This document shows positions 29,085-35,435 of a stretch of 64,000 nt of DNA, piece after piece. Made by a program: the position numbers and the translations under genes. Under the pieces are notes generated by a model. The model was not told the DNA's origin. It did not search any database and saw only the letters and a program-made list of their open reading frames with translations. The stretch's first letter is position 1; the number at the start of each line of letters is the position of its first letter. Source of the DNA: a virus; the IMG/VR virus record IMGVR_UViG_3300025620_000006, positions 1 to 64,000 of that record. One strand, written 5' to 3'.

Positions 29085-29294
29085 ATGTCAAATTTCAAAT
29101 TCAGAGGATTTATTCCTGCAGTAACTAAATATGTAAAATCAAAACCACTAGTAGAAGTAGTGGCGGAAGTAATAGCTTTCGGTTTACTAATGCCATTAGC
29201 GTTTGGCGGAATTACTTTCTTCATCTTTATGATGATAACAGGCCAAGTTGATTATTCAGCGATGGATTCTATTAACTGTCAAATCTGCTACTAA
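29085..29294 (+). CDS. Small membrane protein (69 aa)
   Basis: 69 residues with one strongly hydrophobic segment, residues about 26-52 (AEVIAFGLLMPLAFGG then ITFFIFMMI), flanked by a basic N-terminus. Predicted single-pass inner-membrane protein. Behind the structured RNA; its stop overlaps the next start by one base. Possibly a superinfection-exclusion or host-membrane factor; inference only. Confidence 0.6.
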   Translation: MSNFKFRGFIPAVTKYVKSKPLVEVVAEVIAFGLLMPLAFGGITFFIFMMITGQVDYSAMDSINCQICY

Positions 29295-29437
29295 TGAAAA
29301 GTTACTACAGCAAACTACAGCAGAGATTTATAGCTCGTGAAGAATACTTTGACGAGCTACTCTTTGGAACTCTCAATGATGAGAACTACGACAAGCCAAT
29401 ACAAACTAAATACGACTCTAAATCGATAATACAATAA
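29294..29437 (+). CDS. Small early protein (47 aa)
   Basis: 47 residues, starting MKSYYSKLQQRFIAREEYFD, helical and acidic with Tyr. Starts on the last base of the previous stop codon (TAATG), so coupled. Its 3' end carries the next promoter motif copy. Function unknown. Confidence 0.5.
   Translation: MKSYYSKLQQRFIAREEYFDELLFGTLNDENYDKPIQTKYDSKSIIQ
29410..29431 (+). promoter_or_regulatory. Early-promoter motif copy 3 (inside a gene end)
   Basis: ATACGA (29410-29415), 9 bases, GATAATA (29425-29431), with AATACAAACTA upstream. It lies within the last codons of the 47-aa gene and 33 bases before the next start. Confidence 0.6.
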
Positions 29438-31392: not shown

Positions 31393-31581
31393 ATGTATTG
31401 TAGATGCGGAACAAATATACCACGGTTGCGATTAGATATGGGCTACAAAACCTGTGTTAATTGCTCAACAACCCAAACGTACAGCTATGTACCAATTATT
31501 GAGCATAAAACCGGTAATACAATACAAATCGTCAGTCAAGAAGTAAGTGCATCTGTGCACAGAGCTTGGCGTAGAAAGTAA
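31393..31581 (+). CDS. Small zinc-ribbon protein (62 aa)
   Basis: 62 residues. MYCRCGTNIPRLRLDMGYKT holds Cys-x-Cys and is followed by CVNC, giving a four-Cys zinc-ribbon pattern. Probably a small nucleic-acid- or protein-binding knuckle. Directly behind promoter copy 5 and immediately before the structured RNA region. Confidence 0.6.
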   Translation: MYCRCGTNIPRLRLDMGYKTCVNCSTTQTYSYVPIIEHKTGNTIQIVSQEVSASVHRAWRRK

Positions 31582-31723
31582 GTACAAAGAGTTTTACGGT
31601 ATATAGCTCTATCTAAATATGAAAACCGACTCCAGCGAATAAATAACAGACCGCGGCGTAAGCAAAGGTAGAAAATGTCTGGAATGGCGAAAGATACGAT
31701 TAGTGATCACACAATAGCCGGTA

Positions 31724-31809
31724 AACTAGGTATGGATGTAACAGGTGTTATTAAGTTAAACAGAGTTCATTACTACGACGGTATGAAGGTTCGATTCCTT
31801 CACTAGTTA
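31724..31809 (+). ncRNA. Degenerate tRNA-like element with intact T-arm
   Basis: T-arm GAAGG-TTCGATT-CCTTC at 31785-31801. Acceptor AACTAGG (31724-31730) with ACTAGTT (31802-31808), six of seven pairs, then A and CTA. The 54 bases between do not form a standard D-arm; a weak anticodon-like hairpin TGTTA-TTAAGTT-AAACA has one mismatch (anticodon would be AAG). Either a degraded class II tRNA, a tRNA-like regulator or a processing site. Confidence 0.45.
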
Positions 31810-31817
31810 CTAAAAAT

Positions 31818-32011
31818 CTTATAAATGTGAAGGGCTCAGTATGGCTGTAGGAACTCAGCGAAGAGATACGTGGTTAAGCTGACGAAGATCCTTTAATTTT
31901 ATAAGTCGTAGTATCACGGGTTGCAGAGTAATTAACTGCATGCACGGTGGAAGTCCGATCGTTGAAGTGGTGAGGGATCGTTATGAACTCATGGAAACGG
32001 AGATAACTACG
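31818..32011 (+). ncRNA. Two-domain folded RNA upstream of the tmRNA-like element
   Basis: Domain A: CTTATAAA (31818-31825) with TTTATAAG (31898-31905), AAGG (31830-31833) with CCTT (31890-31893), and inside it TCAGC (31855-31859) with GCTGA (31878-31882). Domain B: CGTAGTATC (31907-31915) with GATAACTACG (32002-32011, one bulged A), enclosing TGCAG/CTGCA (31922-31940) and CGATC/GATCG (31956-31980). Nested helices of this kind exceed chance in AT-rich DNA. The domain ends 4 bases before the tRNA-like element. Confidence 0.5.
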
Positions 32012-32015
32012 TAAT

Positions 32016-32093
32016 GGGGGTGACTTGGTATTGACGTGATAGAAAGCCTATATGGAACTATTACGGAAGACAGTTCGAATCTGTCCACCTCCA
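32016..32093 (+). ncRNA. tmRNA-like alanine-type tRNA-like domain without mRNA domain
   Basis: Acceptor GGGGGTG (32016-32022) with CACCTCC (32086-32092), all seven positions paired, including G3-U70. Discriminator A at 32093. T-arm GACAG-TTCGAAT-CTGTC (32069-32085). The 5' side reads GACTTGGTATTGACG, close to the stemless D-loop of bacterial tmRNA (consensus GA..TGG.TTCGACG). Positions 32035-32042 (CGTGATAG) pair with 32058-32065 (CTATTACG) as an 8-bp P2-like helix closed by a 15-base loop, where tmRNA would instead open into its tag-encoding and pseudoknot part. No tag frame is seen. G3-U70 with A73 is the alanyl-tRNA synthetase identity set. Confidence 0.6.
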
Positions 32094-32112: not shown

Positions 32113-32256
32113 ATGAGCAGGACTAGAAAAAAACCATACACTAAATCAAAAAAGTTTGATAAAACCTGTAGAAACAACGGAAGTTGCCCTTATTGTAGAG
32201 ACAACCGTTTGTACAAAAATAAAAAACGAGATACACAAACAAAATACGATAACTAA
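32113..32256 (+). CDS. Small Cys-motif basic protein (47 aa)
   Basis: 47 residues: MSRTRKKPYTKSKKFDKTCR, then GSCPYCRDN. Three Cys (one upstream plus CPYC) and a very basic background suggest a zinc knuckle and nucleic-acid binding. Ends within promoter copy 6. Confidence 0.55.
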   Translation: MSRTRKKPYTKSKKFDKTCRNNGSCPYCRDNRLYKNKKRDTQTKYDN

Positions 32257-33782: not shown

Positions 33783-33855
33783 TGCGCGGTAGAGCAGTTG
33801 GTAGCTCGCTAGCCTCATAAGCTAGAGGTCGGTGGTTCGAATCCACCCTGCGCAC
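33783..33855 (+). tRNA. tRNA with CAU anticodon (Met, or Ile if lysidine-modified)
   Basis: Complete cloverleaf: acceptor TGCGCGG/CTGCGCA (T1-A72, one G-T pair), D-arm GAGC-AGTTGGTA-GCTC, anticodon arm CTAGC-CTCATAA-GCTAG with anticodon CAT at 33816-33818, variable AGGTC, T-arm GGTGG-TTCGAAT-CCACC. The anticodon stem lacks the three G-C pairs of initiator tRNA, so it is an elongator Met or an AUA-decoding Ile tRNA. CCA is not encoded; CTAAA follows the discriminator position, as in the tRNA-like elements upstream. Confidence 0.9.
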
Positions 33856-33872
33856 CTAAAATTAAATAAATT

Positions 33873-34359: not shown

Positions 34360-34596
34360 ATGACAGACAAAGACATTGAAAAAATTGCACAACGCGTGGC
34401 GCAAGTTCTATATGAACGAGCTCACGCGGATTTGTCATTTATACCACCCGATGAAGACGAAGAACAAACATTACTAGCTGAATTAGCAAAGCTTATGACG
34501 CTATTGTCTTCGTATTTAGAACAAGAAGAGTATCAAAAATGTGCAGTTATTCAAAATAAAATAAAAAGAATAGAAAATAAATTAAATAAATTATGA
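34360..34596 (+). CDS. Small coiled-coil protein with UVR-like motif (78 aa)
   Basis: 78 residues from ATG 34360. The C-terminal part (SYLEQEEYQKCAVIQNKIKR) looks like the UVR coiled-coil motif of UvrB/UvrC (E-Y-E-K-A followed by a basic helix). The N-terminus MTDKDIEKIAQRVAQVLYER is helical. Perhaps a protein-interaction partner of the ligase encoded 4 bases downstream (ATGA overlap). Confidence 0.55.
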   Translation: MTDKDIEKIAQRVAQVLYERAHADLSFIPPDEDEEQTLLAELAKLMTLLSSYLEQEEYQKCAVIQNKIKRIENKLNKL

Positions 34597-35435
34597 TAAA
34601 ACCAATGCTCGCATACAAAGTAGGCAAAAAACCTGTCGACTGGTCCGAGAAAGTGTTCATGCAACCAAAGCTTGACGGCGTACGCTGTATTATACAACTC
34701 GACAAAACAGGAAAAGTAATTGCTTATTCACGCACAGGTAAACCTTGGCTTAATATTAGACATATATTAAAAGATCTTAAACCTTGGTTTGCAGAACATC
34801 CAGACGTTATACTAGACGGTGAATTATACAATCACGAACTACGTAACGACTTCGAAAAAATTATATCATTAGTTAGAACTCAAAAACCAACAGCTTATAT
34901 GCGTTCTAAATCTAAAAAATTAGTACAGTTTCATTGCTACGATTATGCTAATGGCAACGATCCTTATTCACAAAGAATGAGAAACTTAAGCGTTAGTGAT
35001 ATGTATTCTTACTGTGTAAAATACGTTCCAACGTGGCAAGTAACATCTAACGGTCATGCTAATCTAAAACACAAAAGTTTTCTAGAAAAAGATTACGAAG
35101 GCTCTATCTTACGTCTTGATGGTTCTTATCAGCGTAAACGTTCTTACAACTTACAGAAGTTTAAAGACTTTCATGATGCAGAAGCTACTATCGTAGGTTA
35201 TGTGCCAGGTAAAGGTAAACGAACAGGTACTCTTGGTAAATTTGTAATGCAAGATGATAAAGGCGTAGAATTTGGTTGCCCTCCAGGTAAAGGTTATAAC
35301 TATAAAGATCTTGCTAATATACTTGATAATATAGGCGACTATATTGGCCAGCGTGCTACTTTTACTTATTTCGAAAGAACTAAAGCAGGTTCTTACAGAC
35401 ATCCACTTTTCAAAACACTTAGAAATTATGAATAG
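34593..35435 (+). CDS. ATP-dependent DNA ligase
   Basis: 280 residues, small (T7-like size or shorter). Adenylation motif I PKLDGVRC (Lys about residue 27), motif III LDGELYNHE, motif IV YEGSILRLDG, motif V region QKFKDFHDAEATIVGYVPGK, with a short OB-type end (GQRATFTYFERTK). It seals nicks during replication and recombination. Overlaps the small UVR-like gene by 4 and the next gene by 8 bases. Confidence 0.9.
   Translation: MIKPMLAYKVGKKPVDWSEKVFMQPKLDGVRCIIQLDKTGKVIAYSRTGKPWLNIRHILKDLKPWFAEHPDVILDGELYNHELRNDFEKIISLVRTQKPTAYMRSKSKKLVQFHCYDYANGNDPYSQRMRNLSVSDMYSYCVKYVPTWQVTSNGHANLKHKSFLEKDYEGSILRLDGSYQRKRSYNLQKFKDFHDAEATIVGYVPGKGKRTGTLGKFVMQDDKGVEFGCPPGKGYNYKDLANILDNIGDYIGQRATFTYFERTKAGSYRHPLFKTLRNYE

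Follow-up and report, generated by a model that had tools for sequence, protein, structure and literature searches.

A compact tmRNA reduced to its tRNA-like domain at a variable RNA locus of a phage

What use could a phage have for a transfer-messenger RNA (tmRNA) from which the tag-encoding half is left out? This question is raised by positions 32016-32093 (plus strand) of a 64,000-nt stretch of DNA (hereafter the window), which is part of the 65,174-base IMG/VR virus record IMGVR_UViG_3300025620_000006. A sequence-only reading had described at this site a compact, presumably alanylatable tRNA-like domain (TLD) devoid of a tag frame. Comparison with Rfam models, covariation among related elements and the constancy of U70 and A73 (38 of 38 distinct sequences) uphold this description. 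As predicted from its sequence, the element is a TLD-only tmRNA (mini-tmRNA) of about 78 nt plus an added CCA. Its parts, all on the plus strand, are as follows.

32016-32093, plus: the complete mini-tmRNA, from acceptor stem to A73 (RF00023 match; covariation among 38 relatives)
32016-32022, plus: 5′ strand of the acceptor stem, GGGGGTG, with G3 at 32018 (G3-U70 in 38 of 38)
32023-32034, plus: stemless D-loop, ACTTGGTATTGA, in agreement with the tmRNA consensus UGG.UU.GAC
32035-32042, plus: 5′ strand of the 8-bp helix P2, CGTGATAG (both-side changes at 6 of the 7 modelled pairs)
32043-32057, plus: apical region, AAAGCCTATATGGAA, an internal loop and a small hairpin, at the site from which the tag domain extends in a full tmRNA
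32058-32065, plus: 3′ strand of P2, CTATTACG (folding and covariation)
32066-32068, plus: linker GAA
32069-32085, plus: T-arm GACAG-TTCGAAT-CTGTC (100% paired; both-side changes at 4 of 5 pairs)
32086-32093, plus: 3′ strand of the acceptor stem, CACCTCC (32086-32092, U70 at 32090), followed by A73 at 32093

The tmRNA model RF00023 covers the mini-tmRNA end to end (model positions 1-374) with 60.6 bits, against a curated cut-off of 47 (E-value of 3e-21 for the window and 7.6e-25 for the whole record), and the acceptor stem, G3-U70, A73, T-arm and 8-bp P2 all lie where they had been placed from the letters alone. Approximately 300 model positions between the two P2 strands, i.e. the whole tag domain, are deleted in the alignment; an mRNA-like domain with a resume codon and a tag frame is thus not present in the element. 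The P2 strands are only 15 nt apart, and pseudoknots PK1-PK4 are absent. Folded alone, the RNA forms the acceptor, P2 and T-arm and leaves the D region open (z = -3.06); only 1 of 200 shuffled sequences folded as stably. The 15-base loop proposed to close P2 has the expected length, but it is not unstructured, since it holds a small hairpin, CC-TATAT-GG, between AAAG and AA, which re-pairs in other phages. The alanine identity signal, as read from the sequence, is G3-U70 together with A73; alanyl-tRNA synthetase (AlaRS) identifies its substrates by the G3-U70 pair of the acceptor stem, independently of an anticodon. The gene ends in ACTA rather than ACCA, so that CCA would have to be added.

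Of the two programs proposed for checking the element, the Rfam covariance search recognised it above the cut-off, whereas ARAGORN missed it. It does not qualify as an ordinary tRNA with anticodon arm and D-arm: a D-stem is lacking, the loop that closes P2 has 15 nt and ARAGORN makes no call. The models for permuted tmRNAs (RF04321 and RF01849-RF01851) gave no match in the window, and the gene order is standard. The mitochondrial tmRNA model RF02544 had no window match among the matches listed; where models of one clan overlap, the list shows the strongest alone.

Compact TLD-only tmRNAs are not limited to this phage, but constitute a widespread, covarying phage family. They were collected using a pattern that fixed G1-G4 and parts of the D-loop and T-loop, and left free the 3′ acceptor strand, P2, the T-stem and the apical loop. 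The compact-form pattern matched 27 viral contigs and a looser version 53, representing 38 distinct sequences; the latter count is a lower bound, since the pattern required GGGG and a spacing of 25-55. The looser pattern found a single match (L109) in 84,980 prokaryote species, which was discarded as a chance occurrence (the T-stem complement is missing and the sequence folds without a TLD). U70 and A73, neither of which was fixed, are invariant in the 38 sequences. P2 is paired in 96% and the T-stem in 100% of cases, 97.8% of all cells are paired, and cells with a double change number 174, compared with 56 in shuffles. The covariation score is 0.665, versus 0.179 for shuffled and at most 0.133 for slid controls. 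The compensatory P2 changes that had been suggested as a check are therefore abundant. The contigs tested fall into at least 13 groups with no detected homologous open reading frame (ORF) in common, although some of the stretches are short. An apical theme, approximately AAAGCC-N4/5-GG(A)A, is common to flavophage-like contigs and Streptomyces phages, and its small stem re-pairs from phage to phage (CCC/GGG, CCT/AGG, CCA/TGG, CCG/CGG). The site from which the tag domain was lost thus has a conserved structure of its own, as would not be expected of a relic or of a deletion that happened recently. Further elements (L136-L145) are intermediate tmRNA-like TLDs of about 107-122 nt, with a longer, branched centre and no evident tag.

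The compact TLD is also present within tRNA clusters of five cultured Streptomyces phages: LuckySocke, GiJojo, Alone3, pSt2308 and BRock. G3-U70 is conserved in all five, RF00023 gives 57 bits in both of those scored, and the apical theme reads GAAAGCCGCACGCGGA. In the records of these phages (L285, L286, L293, L294, L295) the RNA is unannotated in four cases, and in GiJojo a hypothetical coding sequence (CDS) lies over it. Permuted or full tmRNAs were recognised in Stenotrophomonas phages, the crAss-like phage cr10_1, Tunturi_4 and Gordonia phage Sixama, the permuted ones by RF04321 or RF01850, which provides a positive control for the lack of a permuted-model match in the window. The BLAST matches in the Stenotrophomonas phages, cr10_1 and Tunturi_4, initially taken for compact TLDs, are in fact permuted tmRNAs. 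In Tunturiibacter phage Tunturi_4 (L287) the permuted tmRNA adjoins a phage gene whose product is a release factor with an RF-1 domain. No comparable TLD was found in 45-50 kb of each of three isolated relatives of the window phage (Flavobacterium elemo phage, MW202828 and Cellulophaga phi38:1), and RF00023 had no match over the whole Flavobacterium elemo phage record. The minus strand of Cellulophaga phi38:1 (L148; reverse-complement coordinates 29184-29323) contains an unannotated sequence that may be a tRNA whose insert or variable region is very long.

The portal, GroEL and virion proteins of the window phage match PHROGs families. Its portal protein is nearest to that of Manatee Spring podovirus (49%), followed by Flavobacterium elemo phages (39%), with Cellulophaga phages more distant; on these neighbours, the host is likely to be a member of the Bacteroidota. 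Direct DNA similarity of the window to annotated phages is limited to the tRNA-Met and short fragments. The surroundings of the mini-tmRNA comprise the following features.

31393-31581, plus: gene for a 62-aa zinc-ribbon-like protein, at the upstream edge of the RNA locus (Pfam matches below threshold only)
31582-32015, plus: non-coding stretch of apparently exchangeable structured-RNA modules (mosaic alignment with relatives)
31635-31647, plus: sequence of module C, GCGAATAAATAAC, also found within class-B TLDs
31652-31668, plus: sequence of module A, CGCGGCGTAAGCAAAGG, also found within class-B TLDs, on both scaffolds
31724-31809, plus: tentative second tRNA-like element, class C, AACTAG...T-arm...CTAGTTA (no Rfam match; acceptor pairing approximate)
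31850-31870, plus: sequence of module T, GGAACTCAGCGAAGAGATACG, also found in one class-B TLD and in other loci
31974-31991, plus: sequence of module N, GGGATCGTTATGAACTCA, shared with class-B TLDs, in one of which (L243) it sits inside another module
33783-33856, plus: ordinary tRNA-Met, the sole conventional tRNA in the window
34593-35435, plus: ATP-dependent DNA ligase gene, used as syntenic anchor (Pfam PF01068; relatives L029-L108)

A 43-aa ORF (31675-31806), present in four loci, overlaps the class-C RNA and was not retained as a gene. The class-C scaffold also occurs upstream of the TLD elsewhere (L031:16-197, L047:4084-4202, L050:3449-3630), with a conserved TAC-NGACGN-GTA hairpin. The ORF directly downstream of the mini-tmRNA (32113-32256), which encodes a basic, Cys-rich protein of 47 aa, was considered as a protein partner and dismissed: it is common only to the closest relative (L029) and is therefore not a conserved partner.

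Comparison of the phages encoding related ligases showed that a TLD lies upstream of the ligase gene in 62 of the 75 that could be scored, including the window phage. By automatically assigned labels, 14 of these TLDs belong to class A (the compact mini-tmRNA), 27 to B1 and 21 to B2, the last two being forms of class B. In the relatives the TLD is placed 1.0-3.2 kb upstream of the ligase gene. The zinc-ribbon-like gene is present in 65 of 80 loci, and in 48 of these 65 a TLD with G3-U70 starts 4-601 nt downstream of it. Loci lacking a G3-U70 TLD often contain only the tentative class-C element. The ligase tree requires at least 19 changes among class A, B1, B2 and none; L031 (B1) is separated from L030 and L033 (both A) by only 0.02-0.03 changes per column. 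Such switches between near neighbours indicate that TLD forms are exchanged among close relatives. The comparison suggests that this lineage has several TLD alleles for a single locus, which can replace one another, the mini-tmRNA being one of them.

In class-B TLDs the acceptor stem reads GGGCGTG/CACGTCC or GGGAGTG/CACTTCC and the D-loop is, for example, AAATGGTTAG or ATAAGGTAAG; P2 varies, and AAC links it to the T-arm. Most have lost the UUGAC portion of the D-loop, while G3-U70 is kept. RF00023 is their best family, but at 35-38 bits (E-value of about 1e-11) it remains under the cut-off, and ARAGORN called none of them in the loci scanned. Scans of IMG/VR for exact class-B 3′ ends, in which U70 was fixed and G3 left free, yielded 96 and 41 contigs, corresponding to 117 distinct candidates, of which a few at either extreme of length are doubtful. 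G3 is present in 113 of the 117. Among the apparent exceptions, L251 and L255 are inner chance matches of elements starting with GGGAGTG (cf. L036 and L034, on the same contigs) and L276 contains an ordinary tRNA, whereas L235 is a true A3-U70 element. Approximately 115 distinct class-B elements retain G3. The contigs concerned (L034-L108 and L149-L284; e.g. L092:3678-3838, L243 and L196) document a large family of G3-U70 tRNA-like RNAs below the Rfam cut-off. Two phages each carry two class-B TLDs with different centres (L055:3703-3881, 3 nt apart, one of them A3-U70; L077:2921-3494).

Most class-B elements have a total length of about 68 to 185 nt. In a test anchored on the D-loop and the AAC linker, 72 of 77 formed a P2 of at least 4 bp in a fixed register (mean of 10.3 and maximum of 19 with shuffled partners), and 46 distinct P2 5′ strands were distinguished. 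The centres enclosed by P2 are assembled from recurring modules, 19 of which were named by eye; most of these recur on different scaffolds or lie free of a TLD. Some are nested (N within I in L243, A within K in L196), and L034, L035 and L036 differ by insertions at a single hairpin tip. In the window the TLD is preceded by sequences of modules C, A, T and N. Taken together, these observations suggest that the locus may constitute an alanine-accepting scaffold with exchangeable RNA modules.

With respect to function, the best-supported reading is that the mini-tmRNA may be a decoy for SmpB or the trans-translation machinery, which is close to the published interpretation of mycobacteriophage DS6A. 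It is favoured because DS6A provides a TLD-only precedent and because inhibition of tmRNA is reported for a similar RNA: according to PMC4131195 and PMC11915505, both of which cite Mao et al. 2009, an RNA resembling that of DS6A strongly inhibits tmRNA in E. coli, perhaps by titration of SmpB. The ends of the mini-tmRNA would be finished by the host RNase P and the CCA-adding enzyme, AlaRS would charge it, and EF-Tu and SmpB would bind it much as they bind host tmRNA. As it lacks a resume codon, trans-translation could not be completed. The RNA would compete with host tmRNA for SmpB during infection, and possibly also for stalled ribosomes, taking the nascent chain onto its alanine and offering no template, with the consequence that tagging and rescue would be blunted. 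Since no SmpB gene was found in the window phage, host SmpB would be used or sequestered. We consider the chances about even that the mini-tmRNA jams or diverts host trans-translation in this manner, by analogy with DS6A. Several observations weigh against it. No promoter or terminator near the element scored above shuffles. The same papers (PMC4131195, PMC11915505) report the inhibition to be independent of alanine charging, yet G3-U70 is kept almost throughout, which pure SmpB titration fails to explain. In addition, the class-B TLDs have mostly lost UUGAC but not G3-U70, so the shared function may lie outside SmpB. Both features make two other explanations serious rivals. In one, a charged TLD enters stalled ribosomes with SmpB and accepts the growing peptide, after which the peptidyl-TLD leaves the ribosome and is hydrolysed; the same has been supposed for mitochondrial tmRNAs without a tag frame. 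This would account for the conservation of G3-U70, and tag-less mitochondrial tmRNAs are kept together with SmpB (PMC11915505); however, the sole experiment reported for an RNA of this sort shows inhibition of tmRNA (PMC4131195), and we regard this mode of rescue as unlikely. In the other, which is possible though clearly less probable than the decoy, the TLD is a processed, charged and stable frame for exchangeable modules, the mini-tmRNA being the allele with a minimal centre, and its role is stability, engagement of AlaRS and EF-Tu or display of RNA ligands rather than SmpB titration. The persistence of a TLD upstream of the ligase gene (62 of 75), the 19 or more class switches, the retention of G3 in some 115 class-B elements, the P2 pairing (72 of 77 against 10.3 expected) and the modules that are common to different scaffolds, nested or free-standing all speak for such a frame. 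A neutral scaffold, on the other hand, would require neither the complete tmRNA D-loop nor the conserved apical motif that class A has preserved in unrelated phages, and the modules are so far without known function. As a tentative extension, this lineage may run a natural tRNA-scaffold system, in which a processed, alanine-accepting, tmRNA-derived TLD displays hypervariable, recombining and sometimes nested modules, with the mini-tmRNA as one allele, and the modules act as RNA ligands or decoys for host factors, diversifying like counter-defence genes.

The remaining explanations fit the data poorly. The sequence-only reading had also considered a two-piece tmRNA; the second RNA, which carries the tag, would come from the phage or the host. 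Two-piece tmRNAs exist, and phage-borne permuted ones were detected here, but the gene order is not permuted, the permuted models found nothing in the window and a conserved hairpin caps P2. Neither a contiguous tag-encoding domain (the middle of RF00023 is deleted) nor an Ala-Ala-stop tag end was found in the non-coding DNA flanking the element, and three such ends elsewhere in the window have no tmRNA context and are not credible as a tag domain in trans; a two-piece arrangement is thus highly improbable. That the element is left over from a host tmRNA gene, as a relic or an integration scar, has an equally slight probability. Integration at ssrA is frequent among phages, which then carry the 3′ part of the gene (PMC10865867). 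Here, however, the TLD has both of its halves, a conserved apical hairpin marks the point where they are joined, and many unrelated contigs show strong covariation, so that the relic proposed earlier is not supported. It is also very unlikely that the element merely separates transcripts by offering RNase P and RNase Z a tRNA-like structure to cleave, charging being incidental. Its position among structured RNAs and tRNAs on one strand would agree with such punctuation, which leaves the conserved G3-U70, A73 and tmRNA D-loop unexplained.

The compact TLD-only tmRNA is as a kind already known from DS6A, the only phage named for it in the literature consulted (PMC4131195, PMC11915505). A 2025 tmRNA database paper lists 79 bacteriophage sequences, and only nine standard-order, CDS-less tmRNAs over all sources (PMC11915505). 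The DS6A RNA, compared here by description only, is likewise a contiguous, standard-order TLD without a CDS. Unlike that single case, the mini-tmRNA belongs to a widespread covarying family and alternates with hypervariable TLDs in this lineage. Tag-less mitochondrial tmRNAs of jakobids and oomycetes (RF02544) are also reduced to a TLD that keeps alanine identity, but they are organellar, their gene is usually permuted, and RF02544 was not matched in the window. The CDS-less plastid tmRNAs of Mallomonadaceae (about 65 bp; PMC11915505) resemble the mini-tmRNA in being about the size of a TLD, but are plastid-encoded and known from two sequences. The tmRNAs of Stenotrophomonas phages, cr10_1 and Gordonia phage Sixama are phage-encoded, but full-length or permuted with a tag-domain region. 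The large structured phage RNAs GOLLD and ROOL differ as well; their Rfam models matched neither the window nor any of 12 relatives. The locus itself appears to be new. Neither so large a family nor its occurrence in cultured Streptomyces phages nor, in particular, the alternation with hypervariable modular TLDs was found in the literature searched, whose coverage is partial, so that absence from it is no proof.

Because the compact TLD occurs in cultured Streptomyces phages, the question of whether phages suppress host trans-translation is now accessible to direct experiment. If charging were dispensable, G3-U70 would not be expected to be retained as nearly universally as it is. The TLD alleles with hypervariable centres that occupy the same locus point to an unexplored kind of phage non-coding RNA, largely overlooked by standard tRNA and tmRNA annotation.
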